From assembly GCA_016866755.1 (NCBI GenBank), contig VGLK01000002.1, forward strand, positions 1 through 64,000: DNA of 64,000 nucleotides. The letters are read 5' to 3'. This DNA comes from Candidatus Saccharimonadota bacterium. Lineage in GTDB: Bacteria > Patescibacteriota > Saccharimonadia > Saccharimonadales > Saccharimonadaceae. The position numbers and the translations under genes were made by a program. The notes under the pieces were generated by a model that was not told where the DNA came from, searched no databases, and saw nothing but the letters and a program-made list of their open reading frames with translations. This document shows, one piece after another, positions 5,754 through 13,304 of this stretch (within the stretch, counting starts at the first letter, position 1; every line of letters begins with the position of its first letter).

Positions 5754-6380
5754 CTAATATTTACCCTGCAGTCGTAGCAATATTCCACCAATCACTACTA
5801 AAACCATTGCTAGCCCAATTACAAACGGCAGTCCAAGGCCAGTATCTGCTAAATCGCCTTTATTAGTCGATGGCCGAGGTTTATCAATCGGCGTATCGGG
5901 CAGTAGAGCTGGTGGCGCGTCTATTGCGGTGTTGTCGGTAACCCTGATTGTTAATTCGGTAGTTACGGCATCTTGATAAAAGTGACTATCTTTTGTAAGC
6001 ATTTCAAGCGTAACTACATACGTACCAGATTTTGTTTGTGAATATAAATGCGATAGATTAAGCGTCCAATCGTTACCCGTGGCAGTTAAGTACCTACTTT
6101 GGCCAAGCGTATACCACTGACCAAACAACATAACTCTAAAAGATTTAGCCCGCAGCGAATCGTATTTACCACGCAAAATAAGCTGCCCATTGCTAGCAAT
6201 AATTTCTTCTACAATTGGCACATACGACTCGTCGCAGGTACTAGCGCCGCTCGCTGACTGGCTAAGCTGCACAGTAGTAGACGTACATATAATCGGCTGA
6301 ATTTCTTGCTGTAGTCTAAAATCAGGCACTGGCGAGACAGCAAGTAGCGGCACAAAAAATAAAAGGCTTACTGGCAACAT
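5754..6380 (-). CDS. Secreted protein with LAxTG-type C-terminal anchor (csc-cluster small surface protein)
   Basis: The 208-residue product has a hydrophobic N-terminal signal (residues 1-17), a beta-rich ectodomain with one likely cysteine pair (CTST..., STCDES) and a C-terminal sorting-like signal: LADTG at about 177-181, a hydrophobic stretch and the basic tail RLQGKY. LAxTG is the motif used by class E sortases of Actinobacteria; no sortase is in this window. The ATG lies 1 nt after the stop of the RCC1 gene, so it is translated as the last gene of the operon. In Firmicutes csc clusters a small LPxTG-like protein holds the same position; I infer an equivalent role. Confidence 0.7.
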   Translation of the reverse strand: MLPVSLLFFVPLLAVSPVPDFRLQQEIQPIICTSTTVQLSQSASGASTCDESYVPIVEEIIASNGQLILRGKYDSLRAKSFRVMLFGQWYTLGQSRYLTATGNDWTLNLSHLYSQTKSGTYVVTLEMLTKDSHFYQDAVTTELTIRVTDNTAIDAPPALLPDTPIDKPRPSTNKGDLADTGLGLPFVIGLAMVLVVIGGILLRLQGKY

Positions 6381-6381
6381 A

Positions 6382-8790
6382 TTATTGTGCCACCGCCGTA
6401 AATGTAAGATCTAATGCATATTGTCCTTGCACCTGAGATGGCGGAATAGTTTGCGACACACCTATCCCGTACACATCTCGGTAACAGTTGCTTCCTGCCG
6501 TGTCGTTAACAGAAAGAATCGACAACGCCTGAACTGATTCTGAGAATTTAGCCTCACCCTGATAGCCCAAAAACACGCCCCCAACGCAAGCTTGCGTTTG
6601 CGGCTGATACATAAGATTTGTTAGATCAACTCCCATTTGTCCGGCAAATCCGTCGCCGTCTGAGCCCGAACCACATCCGGCCGGAGAGCCGCTTGAATCA
6701 TTAAAATCGTAGCGGGCTTGCCCGTCGCTACGAGTCCATAAAGCGGTTGGTCCATCAGTTGGCGCAACCGATAACGACCAGTTTCCCTTAGCGCCGGTTT
6801 GGTTTATGCGCAACCGCAATGTATCTTGATTGACTAATAATCCTGAAGTAGTCTGGCAGGCATCGCTTACAAATGTAGGCGAAAGCGTCGCTCCTGGGCT
6901 TGAAACCGTAGTAGACGCCCCATCAACAAACGAGAGTGATAATGCCGTCGGGTCAGCCGTTCGTATTTCTGCTACGGCAGTATAATTGGTTAACGGCGTA
7001 TCTTCATGATGCAGCCGCAAGCAATACGAGGTGCTGGTTGGCGCGTTGTTATCTATAATCGAATAATCCCAAATTGCCATGTTTTCTGCCAATATAGTCG
7101 AAGGATTACTTATTACCCCCTGATTCGCTACGTACACCATGGGTTGCACTGGGCGACCAGTAGGATCTTGCCCAGAATACACACTTATAGGTGCTCCGTG
7201 AGTCGTACCACCATAAAGGCTAAAGCTAATTGGCGTGGTATTAGTCACCTCAGAAAAACCGGTTATTTGTGCCACGCATGTGCTTTGTGTTTTTACTGCA
7301 TACTGCAGTTTTAAATTAGCCGTATTAGTAAAAATATCTATTGGCACGCCATTATTTTGCCCGCTTTGCACACCTATGCGTAGTCGCAGCGGCACGTCAT
7401 CGGTAAGTAGCGCCAAGGGAGTATTAACGACGGCATACGGCGACCCTGGCAAGGCCGAGTTCGTGCTTGGCGCATAAAACCGAAAGGCCGTTTGCTCTAG
7501 GCCCGCGTTCCACCGCGCCTGAACAGGCACAAGTGAAGGAGAAAACTGACCGTTAGTTGCCGATAGACCATACATATCACTTCCCCAGCAATACAAACGA
7601 TTCGAAGCAATACCGCAAGTATTATAGTCGCCACCGTTAACTTGTGTAAAATTTTTTCCATTTGATTCACCAGATTTATCAACCATAGTCGGCACATACG
7701 AAATATTTGTCGTGCCGTTGCCAAGTCGTCCATAATTTGCGGCGTCACCACCGTTATAACCCCAACAAGAAGCACCACCGTCCGAGAGTACTGCGCAGGT
7801 AAACGAGTAGCCAGTCGCGATACCCGTAACTGTTTTTGAGTTTAATGCGCCCGATGTACTTACCGCTACCGGTGTTAAATATTGATTTGTATTGCCAACT
7901 CCCAACTTACCAAGCGACCCATCACCCCAGCAATACGCCCTTCCGGACGCAACCGCACATGTGTGTGCATATCGACTAGCTGAAATATCAGTAACACTTC
8001 TTCCGCCCAAGCCAGTACTTGTAGTAACGGCCGAAGGGCTTGCTACATACGCCGTACTATTATTACCCAACCGACCGTTCGCACCATACCCCCAACAGTA
8101 TGCCTGATTCGACGCACGCACGCACGTATGATAGCCACCAGCTGAAACTTTTTGTATTGTTCTACCCGAAAGCGCACCCGAAGTTGTTACGGTTACCGGC
8201 GTAGTTGAACTAGTGTAGGAACCTCTTCCTAATTGACCACTTTCGCCTAGCCCCCAACATGCTAGCCGGTTACTTTCCGTGATTGCACAAGTGTGGTATG
8301 AACCGGCACTTACCGACACTACCGTTTGACCGGCCAACGCGCCGTACGCGGTAACTGTTTTTACCGGCACACTGCTGTTTACTACGGTACCATCACCAAA
8401 ATTGGAATTCCCGTTGTAGCCCCAGCAATATACTTCACCGCTAGCGACTACGCAGGTGTAATCTAATCCTGCCGAAACCATTGTCACGTATTTACCACTA
8501 AGTTCGCCCGACATAGTAACCTGCGTTGGAACATTGGCATTAGCGTAAGTTCCGTTTCCTAACTGTCCAGCATCATTTTTTCCCCAACAATATGCCCTAC
8601 CGTTGGCTGTCGCACAGGCATGTTCAGCGCCAACCGATACATCAGTTAAATTTTCTGGTGCCCATCCGCCAACTAAGGCCGAAGCCGGCACGCCCGCGCC
8701 TAACACGCCTGCACTTACTGCAATTAACACAAGTGCGAACGTACCCAGCCGCCGAAGTGTGTTTCGCGCTGCCACCGCAAAACGTTTCAT
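6382..8790 (-). CDS. Secreted seven-blade RCC1-repeat protein with WxL-like C-terminal domain
   Basis: The 802-residue protein has a signal peptide (about residues 15-38, ending PASALVGG), then seven RCC1-type blades (about residues 45-420), each with the pattern H/Y-T-C...Y/A-CWG...G.LG. Every blade carries two cysteines, so one disulfide per blade is plausible. A beta-rich middle region follows. The C-terminal 200 residues include NWSLSV (a WxL motif) and end GIGVSQTIPPSQ...YALDLTFTAVAQ, closely like the end of the small WxL-like protein encoded at 9975. The start is 2 nt after the stop of the DUF916 gene. RCC1 propellers usually bind proteins; an adhesin role at the host surface is inference. 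Confidence 0.85.
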   Translation of the reverse strand: MKRFAVAARNTLRRLGTFALVLIAVSAGVLGAGVPASALVGGWAPENLTDVSVGAEHACATANGRAYCWGKNDAGQLGNGTYANANVPTQVTMSGELSGKYVTMVSAGLDYTCVVASGEVYCWGYNGNSNFGDGTVVNSSVPVKTVTAYGALAGQTVVSVSAGSYHTCAITESNRLACWGLGESGQLGRGSYTSSTTPVTVTTSGALSGRTIQKVSAGGYHTCVRASNQAYCWGYGANGRLGNNSTAYVASPSAVTTSTGLGGRSVTDISASRYAHTCAVASGRAYCWGDGSLGKLGVGNTNQYLTPVAVSTSGALNSKTVTGIATGYSFTCAVLSDGGASCWGYNGGDAANYGRLGNGTTNISYVPTMVDKSGESNGKNFTQVNGGDYNTCGIASNRLYCWGSDMYGLSATNGQFSPSLVPVQARWNAGLEQTAFRFYAPSTNSALPGSPYAVVNTPLALLTDDVPLRLRIGVQSGQNNGVPIDIFTNTANLKLQYAVKTQSTCVAQITGFSEVTNTTPISFSLYGGTTHGAPISVYSGQDPTGRPVQPMVYVANQGVISNPSTILAENMAIWDYSIIDNNAPTSTSYCLRLHHEDTPLTNYTAVAEIRTADPTALSLSFVDGASTTVSSPGATLSPTFVSDACQTTSGLLVNQDTLRLRINQTGAKGNWSLSVAPTDGPTALWTRSDGQARYDFNDSSGSPAGCGSGSDGDGFAGQMGVDLTNLMYQPQTQACVGGVFLGYQGEAKFSESVQALSILSVNDTAGSNCYRDVYGIGVSQTIPPSQVQGQYALDLTFTAVAQ

Positions 8791-8792
8791 AA

Positions 8793-9929
8793 CTACTTCT
8801 TCATGATATCCGGCACTTTAAGAGTATCGGCTGGACGAAGCTCGTACGGCGCCTTAATGTTATTAACTCGTGCTAACTTTTGCCATGGCAATTTATGTGT
8901 CGCCGCCACAGAATTAATCGTGTCACCCGCTTTAACGGTGTAATTTTTCCAACTTGTGCGTACAATGCGCTGATGACGTAAGCGATATATACCCGCAATC
9001 ACTACAGCGCTAAGCATAAATCCAATAAGTGCCAATACACCAGCCCCTTTTGCTGTAGGCGCAATGTAAACAACTTCTTTTTTAGAGCTAGCGGTAATAA
9101 GTTCGGCATCATTATCTACACCAAACGAACCAGCCTGTTTGTCATACGAAATACTAGCACTTGCCGAGTACCATCCACCAAATAGTGGACGGTCGCTTGC
9201 TGTAAAAATTTTCTCTAGCGATTGATTAGCTAAAACCGGATACTGACCGCCAACTTGGCTTACCGCACCACCAAATACGGATTGTAGCTGTGCATTTATA
9301 GCAACGTCAGCCGACACGTTGCCTTGGTTTTTTACCGACACCTCGTAAGAAGGTTGGCCGCTACTGTTTGTGCTAACTTCAAATTTTTCTATAGAAACCG
9401 AGCGGTTTAATTCACCCGGAACCGTCGCCACTACGCGAATTGCTTGTCTGGTGCGAATTCGAATATTGCCGTCAGTCTCACCCTCGTCTTGTGGTGACTG
9501 AAAAACTAAACAAGCATTCTGCTCGCCCACATCGCTACCCTCTGGCATTGTCACTCTAAAATCAATCAGTTCACTTGCACCAGCTGCTAGTTCTACAGAT
9601 GTACGCGACAGTTCAATTGTTCGAGACAAACCAGTTTTTTCTTCGTTGTTTTGTTTGCAGGTAAAATCTCCAGTATTCGTCACAATTCCGTCTACCGCCA
9701 AAAGCTCCACCGTTTGATCCTTTTGCGAATTGTTACTTACGCGCACCTGGTCATTCGCCATTTCGCCCGCTTCAAGCGTGTAGATAAAAATTGATTGGGA
9801 ACGAGGATTGTTAGGGTCTGGATTCGCTGGCCTCCCGCCAATACTGCCACTTTGTGCAGCCGCAGAGAGTGGTGAAAGAACCACCAAAGCCACTGCTGCT
9901 ATTATTACTAGGCCTTGTGTTAGTTTCAT
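8793..9929 (-). CDS. DUF916-type WxL-interacting membrane protein with C-terminal LysM
   Basis: The 378-residue protein has a signal peptide (residues 1-25), a DUF916-like beta domain (about 40-190, FIYTLEAGEMANDQVRVSNN), a second beta domain (about 190-280), a transmembrane segment (about 295-316) followed by basic residues, and a LysM domain (about 331-374, YTVKAGDTINSVAATHKLPW). DUF916 proteins are the anchoring partners of WxL proteins in Firmicutes csc clusters. LysM normally binds peptidoglycan, yet by the positive-inside rule it would face the cytoplasm here, which is odd. The start has a good ribosome site (AAGGGAAGAG). Middle gene of the surface operon. Confidence 0.82.
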   Translation of the reverse strand: MKLTQGLVIIAAVALVVLSPLSAAAQSGSIGGRPANPDPNNPRSQSIFIYTLEAGEMANDQVRVSNNSQKDQTVELLAVDGIVTNTGDFTCKQNNEEKTGLSRTIELSRTSVELAAGASELIDFRVTMPEGSDVGEQNACLVFQSPQDEGETDGNIRIRTRQAIRVVATVPGELNRSVSIEKFEVSTNSSGQPSYEVSVKNQGNVSADVAINAQLQSVFGGAVSQVGGQYPVLANQSLEKIFTASDRPLFGGWYSASASISYDKQAGSFGVDNDAELITASSKKEVVYIAPTAKGAGVLALIGFMLSAVVIAGIYRLRHQRIVRTSWKNYTVKAGDTINSVAATHKLPWQKLARVNNIKAPYELRPADTLKVPDIMKK

Positions 9930-9974
9930 AGCTCTTCCCTTGCTTATTCTAAAATTAACTGTTTCGTAACTAGT

Positions 9975-10607
9975 TTACGATGCAGCAACAGTTTGCGTTA
10001 AATCAATCGTATAGGTACCGGCTGGTTGTGCAGCAGGTACAGTCTGACTAAGGCCTACTCCAGTAATATAACCATTCCAAATATCGGCCGATGTCGCATC
10101 GGCGGTCATTAATGTTACCGGTGCAGTACCCGTAAACGCTTGCGAAGCACCACGCGTAACACCGGTCGATCCACCAGTTACAGCGGTAATTGCACCTACA
10201 CTTGGGTTAACGGTTAGCTGGCCAGTTGCCGTAGTGCCATTGTAGGCGTAAGTGTTCGATCCACTTGTCCAAGCGCCAGTGCCAGGTGTCGTAGCGTTTA
10301 GCGTTAAAGTCCAGCCGCCATTAGCACCGCCTGGGTTATCGACTGATATGCGCTGCGACGCTGTGCCGAACGTGCCAGTAACCGTTTGGCCGCTGGTTGA
10401 TACGCTTGCTGCGCCCATACTGAAAGAAGGCGATGCCACTACGGCGTTTGAGCTGTTACGAATGTCCGTACCTAGCACTCCCGCGTTAATTTGCTGCGAC
10501 AACCGAGAACTAGCTGAGCTTGCAGCGTGCACTGCACCGCCTGCTAAGGCGGCAATTAAAGTTGTAAAAACGGCTACGTATAGCCATGTTGTTTCACGAT
10601 TTTTCAT
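9975..10607 (-). CDS. Secreted WxL-like surface protein
   Basis: The start is the ATG at 10607 preceded by TAGGGGAG; a further upstream in-frame start lacks a ribosome site. The 210-residue product has a signal peptide (about residues 8-29), a Thr/Ser/Gly-rich beta ectodomain with GGWTLTL (WxL motif) and a C-terminus YITGVGLSQTVPAA...GTYTIDLTQTVAAS. WxL domains usually carry a second W-x-L near the end; here that Trp is replaced. The same C-terminal pattern recurs in the RCC1 protein downstream. First gene of the four-gene operon, behind a strong promoter. WxL proteins bind peptidoglycan non-covalently in Firmicutes; the same is inferred here. Confidence 0.75.
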   Translation of the reverse strand: MKNRETTWLYVAVFTTLIAALAGGAVHAASSASSRLSQQINAGVLGTDIRNSSNAVVASPSFSMGAASVSTSGQTVTGTFGTASQRISVDNPGGANGGWTLTLNATTPGTGAWTSGSNTYAYNGTTATGQLTVNPSVGAITAVTGGSTGVTRGASQAFTGTAPVTLMTADATSADIWNGYITGVGLSQTVPAAQPAGTYTIDLTQTVAAS

Positions 10608-10654
10608 ATACACTCCCCTATAAAACACTTACATTACGTGCTTATGCTAATCAG

Positions 10655-10683
10655 AATGTAGCAGGCCTATGGCGTGTTGTCAA
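10655..10683 (-). promoter_or_regulatory. Promoter of the WxL/DUF916/RCC1 operon
   Basis: TTGACA (10678-10683) and TACATT (10655-10660) on the minus strand are exactly 17 bp apart, between the VKOR stop and the WxL gene. Confidence 0.82.
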
Positions 10684-10693
10684 CAGCTTTTTT

Positions 10694-11347
10694 CTAAAAA
10701 ACAAATAGTGCCGCACCATATTTGAGTATAATAGCCGCCAGTGCGCCAACAAGAACAATTGCTAGTAGCAAGGTGTCATAGTCTTTTGCAACCCACGCCT
10801 TTAAACGCGTCGACCACACCTGTGGCAAGTACAAATTATCAGCCAAAATATTATAGCGAGTAATCGCAAACCACACTAGCGTCGTAGTAAGTGTTACCAG
10901 CAGACACCACGGACACAAGGCACCTATTACAAACATGCTCTGGTAAAACAGCCACGCCGCAAATAATAGTCCAAGTGTATAGCCAATTTGAGCCGCAAAC
11001 ATAAATTTACGCGGAAAAACCACGCCCATAAGGCCTGCAATTGCAACCGTTATTACTACAGACTCAGCCATAAGTCCCAAAAAACTATATGGAAAGCCGA
11101 GTAACTCAGCACTTGGGTGCGCGGCTACCGTTGCACAGTTTAAAACCACGCTAATACTACATGACAGCTCTGCATCGGGATTTTTTGCAAGTTCAATCGC
11201 CTCAACCGACAACACAAACGAAGCAATCAAGCTTAAAATAGCTCCCACCAGCATGCTGGTAAAAATCCAGCGCGTTTGCTGTTCCGAAACTAACGCCCCA
11301 GACGTTTTTTTGTTTTTAGAAAATAGCTTTACTAAACCTTTAGGCAT
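10694..11347 (-). CDS. Vitamin K epoxide reductase (VKOR)-family disulfide generator
   Basis: The 217-residue membrane protein has five or so hydrophobic segments and the VKOR signature: loop cysteines C63 and C71 (SCSISVVLNC), the helix-proximal FPYSFLGL, and the active-site pair C145-P-W-C148. VKOR homologues pass electrons from periplasmic thiol oxidases to quinones and so drive disulfide formation outside the membrane. The ATG overlaps the thioredoxin-fold gene by 8 nt (GAGGTGAG as ribosome site). It lies just upstream of surface proteins rich in cysteine pairs, its plausible clients. Confidence 0.9.
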   Translation of the reverse strand: MPKGLVKLFSKNKKTSGALVSEQQTRWIFTSMLVGAILSLIASFVLSVEAIELAKNPDAELSCSISVVLNCATVAAHPSAELLGFPYSFLGLMAESVVITVAIAGLMGVVFPRKFMFAAQIGYTLGLLFAAWLFYQSMFVIGALCPWCLLVTLTTTLVWFAITRYNILADNLYLPQVWSTRLKAWVAKDYDTLLLAIVLVGALAAIILKYGAALFVF

Positions 11348-11597
11348 AAAAACTCACCTCGTTAATGGTTGGAAGCGGCCGACCACGCCAAAGTGACACC
11401 AGGCTACCGTTTTCGCCTATCGCTACAATACTTGGATATTCAACAATGTCGTAAACACGACAAAAATCAGCTCCCTCTCGGGTTTCTGGGTCGATTTCTT
11501 CAATCTCTCGGCCAGTTTGTCGAGAAAAATCGCGCAAATAATCAAGCACTTCGCGGGCGTGATCACTTTCTAATTTATAAATAATTTTTACACTCAT
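11340..11597 (-). CDS. Small thioredoxin/glutaredoxin-fold protein lacking CxxC
   Basis: The 85-residue product shows the thioredoxin-fold pattern: beta strand KIIYKL, helix, EIEEIDPET, VYDIVEYPSIVAIGENGSLVSLWRG with the cis-proline region EYPS. The usual CxxC is absent and only one cysteine (about residue 46) remains, so it is unlikely to be a conventional dithiol oxidoreductase. Its overlap with the VKOR gene suggests a related role, perhaps as an adaptor. It follows nrdR by 3 nt and may be cotranscribed. Confidence 0.72.
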   Translation of the reverse strand: MSVKIIYKLESDHAREVLDYLRDFSRQTGREIEEIDPETREGADFCRVYDIVEYPSIVAIGENGSLVSLWRGRPLPTINEVSFYA

Positions 11598-11600
11598 TTT

Positions 11601-12077
11601 TTAGCTCTCACCCTCTTCGCCACGTTTTCGCTGAGCTAAAATCGCCTCAAATTCGTCTAGTGTTTTAAACTTACGGTATACGCTTGCAAATCGCACGTAA
11701 GCCACGTCGTTTTTTCCCGCCAAAGTATCAAGTACTTTATCGCCAATTTGCGAAGAAGTAATTTCGGCTTCGTTCAACCCGTAAAGTGACTCTTCAATAT
11801 CGGCAATCATCTTTTCAACATCGCTTTCGCTGGTAAAAAACTTGCCGACCGATTGATGGATTGCGCGTGTTAATTTATCGCGATCAAACAGTTCGCGGGT
11901 GCCATCTTTTTTTATAACAACAAGATTAGGCTTTTCAATCCGCTCGTACGTTGTAAAGCGCCGTCCGTCCGACGCCTCGCGACGACGACGTATGGCAATA
12001 CCACCGCCAACTTCTCGCGATTCAATCACACGACTGTCACCAATATTTATAAGTGATGAATACGGCTGACGCTGCAC
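11601..12077 (-). CDS. nrdR: NrdR-type regulator with all zinc-ribbon cysteines lost
   Basis: The 158-residue protein matches NrdR, the ATP/dATP-sensing repressor of ribonucleotide reductase genes. IRRRRE...RRFTTYERIEKP and an ATP-cone domain (about residues 48-140, VVIKKDGTRELFDRDKL) are clear. The N-terminal zinc ribbon, normally with four cysteines, reads MQRQPYS and REASDGRRF here, and there is no cysteine in the whole protein. DNA binding must therefore work without zinc or be altered. Start is GTG at 12077, 9 nt after AGGAG. It follows ftsZ in the same direction. Confidence 0.9.
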   Translation of the reverse strand: MQRQPYSSLINIGDSRVIESREVGGGIAIRRRREASDGRRFTTYERIEKPNLVVIKKDGTRELFDRDKLTRAIHQSVGKFFTSESDVEKMIADIEESLYGLNEAEITSSQIGDKVLDTLAGKNDVAYVRFASVYRKFKTLDEFEAILAQRKRGEEGES

Positions 12078-12089
12078 GCTAATAAACTC

Positions 12090-13304
12090 CTATTTGTTTT
12101 TCTTTCGACGTCGCAAGAAAGCAGGCGTATCATCTTCGTCGTCGTGTTCATCAACGCCATTCGCCCAAATATTGTGTTCGTGTTCGCTCGTAAAATCTTC
12201 GACAGAGTCTTTACCAGACAATTCTTCGTCCATTGAGTTAGCCACGGCGTTTACCTCTTTATCTTCACGAGACAAACTTTCACGCTCTGTAAGCGCTGCA
12301 GGCTGCGAAGCGGCACCAAACGAAGTACTAGACACATCATTAAACATGTCGCTGTCAAAACCAGTTGCAATTACCGTAATAATCAGTTCATCTTCAAGCT
12401 CTGGCTTTAGGGTAGCACCAAATATAATGTTAGCCTCTGGGCTTACAGCGCTGGTGATAATTTCAGCCGCCTCTTGAATTTCTGCCATGCTCATGTCGTA
12501 ACCGCCGGTTACGTTAAACAGCACACCCTTAGCACCGTCAATTGACACCTCAATAAGTGGTGATTCAATGGCTTGCTGCGCTGCTTGCACCGCGCGGTCT
12601 TCACCACTGGCTCGTCCAATACCCATAAGCGCCGAACCTGCGTTGCTCATAATTGCCTTTACGTCGGCAAAGTCGAGGTTAATTAATCCGTGCTCAGTAA
12701 TAAGCTCCGAGATACCCTGAACACCTTGTCGTAGCACGTCGTCGGCAATCTTAAAGGTCTCTAACAGTGGCGTACGACGATCAATTGTTTGCAACAAACG
12801 ATCATTCGGAATGGTAATTAATGTATCAACCGCTCGGCCTAAGTGTTGAATTGCCCATTCAGCGTTCAATCGGCGCTTTTCACCTTCAAAGCTAAACGGC
12901 CGCGTAGCCACACCTACAACTAAGATACCTAGCTCGCGCGCTACTTCGGCAACTACGTGTCCCGCGCCCGAACCAGTACCGCCACCGGCACCAATCGTTA
13001 CAAATATCATGTCAGCGCCATCAATGGCGTCTCTAATTTCATCTCGCGACTCTTCGGCCGCCCGTTCACCAACCGTTGGATCAGCTCCGGCGCCCAAACC
13101 GTTTGTTGTGCTATGTCCAAGGTGAATTTTTATGTCCGCCTTAGAGTTATGTAGCGCCTGAGCATCGGTGTTCATAGCAATAAATTGCACACCATTAAGA
13201 CCGGCGTCTTTCATGCGATTAACCGCACTTCCACCGGCGCCACCAATGCCAACTACTTTAATGCTGGCAAATGTTTGAATCTCACTTGGTTTTACTTCAG
13301 GCAT
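12090..13304 (-). CDS. ftsZ: Cell-division tubulin FtsZ
   Basis: This 404-residue GTPase polymerises into the division ring. It shows [15 protein letters not shown] near the N-terminus, the tubulin signature GGGTGSG (107-113), the T7-loop region [15 protein letters not shown] and an acidic linker followed by the C-terminal peptide [14 protein letters not shown], which binds FtsA and other partners. The start has AGAGGGGTGT upstream. ftsA precedes it by 49 nt, the usual division-gene pair. Confidence 0.98.

Follow-up and report, generated by a model that had tools for sequence, protein, structure and literature searches.

In published surveys, nearly all WxL proteins and proteins of the WxLIP type came from Lactobacillales and Bacillales (PMC10599100, PMC9772566). 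According to published models, an unstructured loop of WxLIP becomes ordered on WxL binding and supplies a strand that closes a gap in the WxL sandwich (PMC10599100). In Saccharibacteria, PilX2 of Nanosynbacter lyticus is a minor pilin with an RCC1 propeller; among the minor pilins, it alone is required for the function of the type IV pilus T4P-2, and it was proposed to be an adhesin (PMC12206443). A literature search yielded no paper that treats WxL together with Saccharibacteria or DUF916 together with Patescibacteria, subscription papers being mostly outside its coverage. In the present study, a stretch of 64,000 nucleotides of a Candidatus Saccharimonadota bacterium (contig VGLK01000002.1, assembly GCA_016866755.1; hereafter, the window) was analyzed. 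It contained four genes which, as a whole, probably represent a branch, within the candidate phyla radiation (CPR), of the WxL/csc surface clusters, one that displays an RCC1 propeller and would probably use it for host binding.

The products of the four open reading frames (ORFs), all located on the minus strand with intergenic gaps of 45, 2, and 1 nt, were designated P0001–P0004. These were a small WxL-like protein of 210 aa with a signal peptide and one WxL-like domain (P0001, 9975..10607), a WxLIP-LysM protein of 378 aa identified by Pfam and by an AlphaFold model (P0002, 8793..9929), a large component of 802 aa comprising a signal peptide, an RCC1 propeller, a middle domain, and a C-terminal WxL-like domain (P0003, 6382..8790), and a small anchor protein of 208 aa with an LQQEI segment, an LADTG signal, and a membrane helix (P0004, 5754..6380). 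The original prediction, made from the sequence alone, had placed four tightly spaced leftward genes under one promoter, and this arrangement was confirmed: a promoter-like site, TTGACA-17-TACATT with an extended −10 element, was located ~48 nt ahead of the P0001 start codon (10655..10683, minus strand), promoter-like sites taken as a class being only weakly above shuffles.

By the WxLIP test, the cluster belongs with the csc/WxL clusters, whereas by the strict Pfam definition of WxL, P0001 and P0003 are not members. Residues 37–135 of P0002 (9525..9821, minus strand) matched WxLIP_PGBD (PF06030, formerly DUF916) with an E-value of 3.4e-9 and 37.2 bits against a cut-off of 27.3, in agreement with the DUF916-type second protein originally proposed; no match to Pfam HBD (DUF3324) was found in P0002. 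In its AlphaFold model (mean pLDDT, predicted local distance difference test, 90.6; 37 sequences in the alignment), the top three fold matches in PDB were WxLIP chains of E. faecium (9i25_C, 7e-14; 9i1y), the title of one of these entries naming long WxL as the bound partner. With a profile built from 19 relatives, 9i25_C was also found by sequence (5e-7), and the solved E. faecium WxLIP was the sole convincing PDB sequence match of P0002 outside LysM, at an identity of 13%. P0002 is a true WxLIP. The model also contained a second beta (immunoglobulin (Ig)-like) domain, a candidate HBD by its fold, and matched the two-domain WxLIP over 266 columns.

Toward its C-terminus, P0002 contained a membrane helix (residues 296–314; 8988..9044, minus strand; Kyte–Doolittle hydropathy (KD) 2.49) followed by net positive charge and, at its end, a LysM domain (residues 330–373; 8811..8942, minus strand; Pfam, 2.5e-11) that had not been part of the original prediction. 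In 37 sequences, the mean net charge over 15 residues was +0.27 before the helix and +4.27 after it, and the charge was higher after the helix than before in 36 of the 37. Because of this charge pattern (positive-inside rule), the LysM of P0002 is predicted to be cytoplasmic if the helix sits in the cell's own membrane. In a published proposal, the WxLIP helix is inserted into the host membrane (PMC10599100); the LysM behind the helix bears on this proposal, and in contrast to it the charge pattern seen here points to the membrane of the bacterium itself.

The C-terminal WxL-like domain of P0003 (residues ~611–802; 6385..6960, minus strand) belongs to the same family as P0001. When the P0001 family was aligned with the P0003 C-terminal family, hhalign gave an E-value of 8.6e-47 and a score of 287, while the best column-shuffled score was 19; judging from these profiles, the small proteins and the C-termini of the large proteins are one domain family. 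Three C-terminal patterns had originally been listed as common to both, among which WxL (WTL/WSL) and YxxDLT (YTIDLT/YALDLT) were found as described, whereas GxGLSQT had to be corrected to GxG[LV]SQT (GVGLSQT/GIGVSQT). Elsewhere in the phylum, Pfam WxL (PF13731) matched in 10 of 380 genomes; some PF13731 proteins of other CPR genomes adjoin WxLIP genes, with LysM-like tails in loci L107 and L105.

For profile comparison, mature small proteins with the signal peptides removed were used. Their profile aligned with the CPR PF13731 proteins with a score of 38.7 over 153 columns (60 shuffles reached at most 19.1, the reversed control 10.6) and with a mixed set including Bacilli WxL with a score of 31.5 (best shuffle, 17.1), while its score against the WxLIP profile, 15.8, was within the shuffle range and represented no match. 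Full-length hhalign of 38 small proteins, signal peptides included, gave a probability of 97% against WxL, and the mature profile in HMMER gave 23.5 and 21.4 bits on two PF13731 proteins, compared with 10.6 for the best of ~2,700 shuffled sequences. The profile of the large-protein domain alone matched WxL weakly. A search of the small-protein profile against PDB sequences found nothing convincing, and plasmid WxL sequences matched the solved WxL chain 9i25_A weakly (E 0.011). These comparisons point to a remote but significant homology of P0001 to WxL along the whole domain, and the link of P0003 to WxL is drawn because its domain shares a family with P0001. The csc cluster would be complete only if the remote WxL-like domains are allowed to stand for Pfam WxL.

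The seven-blade RCC1 propeller of P0003, which had been correctly recognized in the original prediction, occupied residues ~46–430 (7501..8655, minus strand). Pfam reported RCC1 (3.3e-52), WD40_RLD, and RCC1_2 in seven stretches; each of the seven CWG blades contained a pair of cysteines, and the protein had 20 cysteines in all. A VKOR-family disulfide oxidase is encoded directly upstream of the cluster and outside the cluster proper (10694..11347, minus strand), and it may plausibly help to fold the cysteine-rich propeller. Another RCC1 protein of the same genome begins like a pilin and resembles PilX2 (G000:C3 ~10887-12722; L126:2388-4223, minus); its propeller and that of P0003 had ~26% identity. 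Host binding by the propeller is favored because the RCC1 propeller of PilX2 is a proposed host adhesin and because the bacterium's own genome has a pilin-like RCC1 protein. That the propeller instead binds environmental glycans, for feeding or for adhesion to surfaces rather than to a bacterial host, appears improbable. The first role proposed for csc clusters, in Lactobacillus, was in carbohydrate use (PMC1534035), actinobacterial DUF916 clusters adjoin GH43 and LamG proteins, and LamG was found in a protein near a divergent Saccharibacterial WxLIP (L058), but the cluster proteins scanned included no glycoside hydrolase, and the known Saccharibacterial RCC1 propeller sits on a host-binding pilus.

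Some WxLIP match was detected in 94 of the 198 genomes of the family sample, the close WxLIP-LysM type being present in ~22. In the phylum sample, 47 of 362 genomes, from 44 of 302 genera, had a WxLIP match at 1e-20, the weaker matches being without the LysM end; the named groups include Saccharibacteria and Doudna-, Falkow-, Colwell-, Magasanik-, and Peregrinibacteria. Gene order was counted in 43 loci found by WxLIP alone. The small gene lay directly upstream of WxLIP in 38 of the 42 testable loci, and a large protein with a C-terminal WxL-like domain lay downstream in 24 of the 31 testable loci. The arrangement small–WxLIP–large was encountered repeatedly in Saccharibacteria as well as in other CPR groups, so that conservation of gene order in relatives, which the original prediction had required, was borne out. 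In L049, the order was different (large, anchor, small, WxLIP).

The RCC1 version of the large protein was found in the window and in L031, L032, L033, L049, and the frame-broken L060, the large proteins of L032 and L033 being seen in part, as these loci are cut by contig ends. In the others, the N-terminal part was fibronectin III, DUF7483, or a region with no known domain. The idea that these clusters generally carry RCC1 was rejected, since ~6 of roughly 22 close relatives have it. The likeness to the parts list of csc clusters, as originally proposed, held for the same four kinds of protein, with the limit that RCC1 is not a fixed feature and that several other domains can be displayed in its place. 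That the platform stays constant while the displayed part varies is the csc pattern. It should be noted that the RCC1 cluster of L060 (G148) was split over several frames, through decay or assembly errors. Divergent WxLIP-like proteins of ~25% identity and without LysM are common in the family (L052–L059 and many other members) and often lie beside small secreted proteins ending in YxxxxTxT; these loci may form another branch of such clusters, so far undescribed.

The small LAxTG-anchored protein of the original prediction was confirmed as P0004, in which the sortase motif LADTG (5838..5852, minus strand) lies 32 residues from the end and is followed by a hydrophobic stretch and a basic tail. 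P0004 also contained an LQQEI segment (6300..6314, minus strand) that resembles the N-terminus of the small WxL-like protein, where the segment LSQQI (10488..10502, minus strand), with Q38 and I40 nearly invariant, forms part of the mature N-terminus of P0001. The anchors of the Saccharibacterial clusters are otherwise poorly alike, yet [LF]xQxI follows the signal peptide in nearly all of them, often with xPxxC after it, and resembles the sequence LTQTINAGTL with which the mature small protein begins. Among 278 exported-looking non-WxL proteins of these loci, LxQxI was found in 17, nearly all anchors (4.5 in shuffled windows). Segments of anchor and small protein resembled each other more closely within a genome than after re-pairing (p 0.002, and 0.004 for the flanks alone), as in the pair SSANSNLSQVI and TTANSKLSQTI of L049; shared ancestry is still contained in this pairing test, and the choice of segments by motif favors likeness. 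The WxL-like domain of the large proteins begins after the position of the LxQxI segment and does not include it.

These segments bear on donor-strand assembly, a possible but unlikely explanation, which refines the best explanation rather than opposing it. The WxL-like domains would be incomplete Ig folds, and WxLIP would act as a membrane-tethered chaperone of the pilus kind, lending a strand, which would then be swapped for the LxQxI of the next small protein or of the wall anchor. In such a chain, which would follow the logic of pili, the anchor would be a donor only, the small protein both donor and acceptor, and the large RCC1 protein an acceptor only, at the tip. The AlphaFold model of P0001 (pLDDT 77, low at the N-terminus, a point against this explanation) had FimA subunits as its best PDB matches (1.3e-3, probability 0.99–1.00; template modelling (TM) score to 6erj_A 0.61), other pilins being lower, and after WxLIP the P0002 model matched the pilus chaperones CfaA, CsuC, Caf1M, and CupB2. 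However, the FimA match was borderline and at the level of the fold only, and no fimbrial Pfam match was obtained even at E 10. In the published AlphaFold complex, a WxLIP strand completes the WxL sandwich (PMC10599100), and the matching loop of P0002 was the least ordered: residues ~145–161 formed a low-confidence hairpin loop (9447..9497, minus strand), with the only listed stretch below pLDDT 50 (residues 151–153) in the hairpin between strands 135–144 and 162–170. The loop would be placed at the published WxL-binding loop by position, not by superposition. The presence of LxQxI in the small proteins and nearly all Saccharibacterial anchors, the pairing within genomes, and the lack of the segment in the large-protein domain are consistent with donor-strand assembly, but the N-terminal strand could be the domain's own first strand, and groups with dockerin-type proteins have no anchor motif. 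That CPR bacteria build a surface fiber through donor-strand exchange with neither outer membrane nor usher, its first donor strand coming from the LxQxI of the wall-linked anchor and its tip being capped by an exchangeable adhesin, such as an RCC1 propeller, to hold the host, is rather unlikely; if it were true, the same logic might apply to the WxL clusters of Firmicutes.

Clusters with dockerin-type proteins were observed in other CPR groups (L077, L083, L085, L088, and L093), where the product encoded after the large protein had a dockerin-type match at its C-terminus. These clusters also contained a membrane-anchored protein, cohesin-like by eye and without a Pfam match, and the LxQxI anchor was absent from them.

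Several observations weigh against the reading of the cluster as a CPR branch of WxL/csc clusters with a displayed propeller. P0001 and P0004 had no usable match in Pfam or NCBIfam, P0001 failing Pfam WxL in particular, and Pfam WxL matched no member of the P0001 family and nothing in the bacterium's own genome. The first WxL motif was kept (WTL in P0001), while the second, whose loss had not been noticed in the original prediction, was replaced (LTQTV) and absent across the family alignments. The 50 structural matches listed for P0001 were headed by pilus subunits and did not include the solved WxL chain 9i25_A. These three facts would suit an unrelated secreted family that stands beside a WxLIP-like protein and has acquired the short motifs by convergence, but this is very improbable, given that the full-length profile matches are collinear and far above the shuffled and reversed controls and that the P0001 family and the PF13731 proteins have the same neighbor, WxLIP. 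The WxL-like domain originally predicted stands as a remote profile homology to PF13731 proteins and not as a Pfam or listed structural match.

Further points against the preferred reading concern the anchor and the WxLIP protein. LAxTG was found in the anchors of the window, L031, and L049 only, the other anchors having a membrane helix alone, and in L036 and L046 WxLIP-LysM occurred alone between VKOR and ileS, without WxL-like genes. The latter arrangement is in line with a role in the bacterium's own envelope or division, in which a cytoplasmic LysM would bind or sense wall precursors and couple wall synthesis to the surface layer, the propeller being structural. LysM is retained behind the helix in nearly all members of the WxLIP-LysM family, with the charge pattern described above, and in several genomes the cluster is placed between ftsA-ftsZ-VKOR and ileS. 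Such a role is nevertheless of low probability, as the displayed domain differs from lineage to lineage, in keeping with binding to varying partners, and as many other clusters are located elsewhere in the genome. Finally, the whole scheme proposed below is, for expression, interaction, and binding, predicted from sequence and models.

According to the preferred reading of a surface cluster displaying a propeller, all four products would be exported, judging from their signal peptides, which were recognized by crude hydropathy; that of P0004 was the weakest of the four, with no basic n-region. The helix of P0002 is strongly predicted to keep this protein in the membrane of the bacterium itself, with the two Ig-like domains predicted outside and LysM inside. 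By homology to the solved WxLIP–WxL complex, its DUF916 part would hold the WxL-like domains of P0001 and P0003 in the zone between membrane and wall, and P0004 would tie the assembly to the wall via sortase, as suggested by LADTG and by the two sortases in the genome. P0003 would display the disulfide-rich RCC1 propeller outside the cell, where it would most likely bind a surface molecule of the host bacterium, and in other lineages the platform would be kept and the displayed part exchanged. The attachment of CPR epibionts to their hosts is largely unexplained beyond type IV pili, and the conserved modular cluster offers concrete proteins for it.

Upstream of VKOR, the order was a short ORF, an ATP-cone-like ORF, and genes that we take by eye to be ftsZ and ftsA, while the gene downstream of the cluster is presumably ileS, likewise named by eye from its sequence. 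A T-box suspected by eye before ileS had no Rfam match and was rejected. The short ATP-cone-like ORF (window 11601-12077), located between ftsZ and the small ORF preceding VKOR, is kept in relatives. In L036 and L046, a protein of 926–932 aa ending in CYVCTTCGSTTGCS was found between the ATP-cone-like ORF and VKOR.

Comparison with actinobacterial DUF916 clusters (Cellulosimicrobium, Clavibacter) showed that there, too, a small secreted protein adjoins a DUF916-helix protein, but these clusters differ in having no LysM and no RCC1 and in having GH43 and LamG neighbors. Their small proteins weakly matched the CPR WxL profile (23.4 and 20.1 bits). In L095 and L096, the actinobacterial clusters are on plasmids and consist of a small secreted protein, a DUF916 protein, and GH43/LamG proteins. 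Chaperone–usher pili (FimA/CsuA; CfaA/CsuC/Caf1M) are similar to P0001 and P0002 at the fold level, with no sequence-family match; unlike in these pili, WxLIP is membrane-tethered, and an usher, which was not searched for, is not expected in a single-membrane cell. As in PilX2 of the N. lyticus T4P-2, the propeller of P0003 has seven blades and occurs in a Saccharibacterium, being extracellular in the former and predicted to be so in the latter, whereas the PilX2 propeller is carried by a minor pilin and not by a WxL-type platform; the genome studied here has both kinds.

The closest described systems remain the WxL/csc clusters of Lactobacillales and Bacillales, with which the cluster shares a small WxL-type protein, a large one, WxLIP, and an LPxTG-type protein, all with signal peptides, as well as the position of the WxL-type domain at the C-terminus of the large protein behind exchangeable N-terminal domains and the membrane helix of WxLIP. 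It differs from them in that WxL has diverged beyond Pfam and lost its second motif, LysM is attached to WxLIP (the solved chain of E. faecium WxLIP (9i25, 9i1y), the best fold match of P0002, is without LysM), RCC1 is the displayed part, the anchor has an LxQxI segment, and the hosts of the cluster are CPR bacteria. The cluster is apparently an undescribed, distant branch of the WxL/csc clusters of Firmicutes, in which the host group, the degenerate WxL, LysM on WxLIP, the displayed RCC1, and the LxQxI anchor segment are new, and by which WxL systems would be extended from Firmicutes to CPR.

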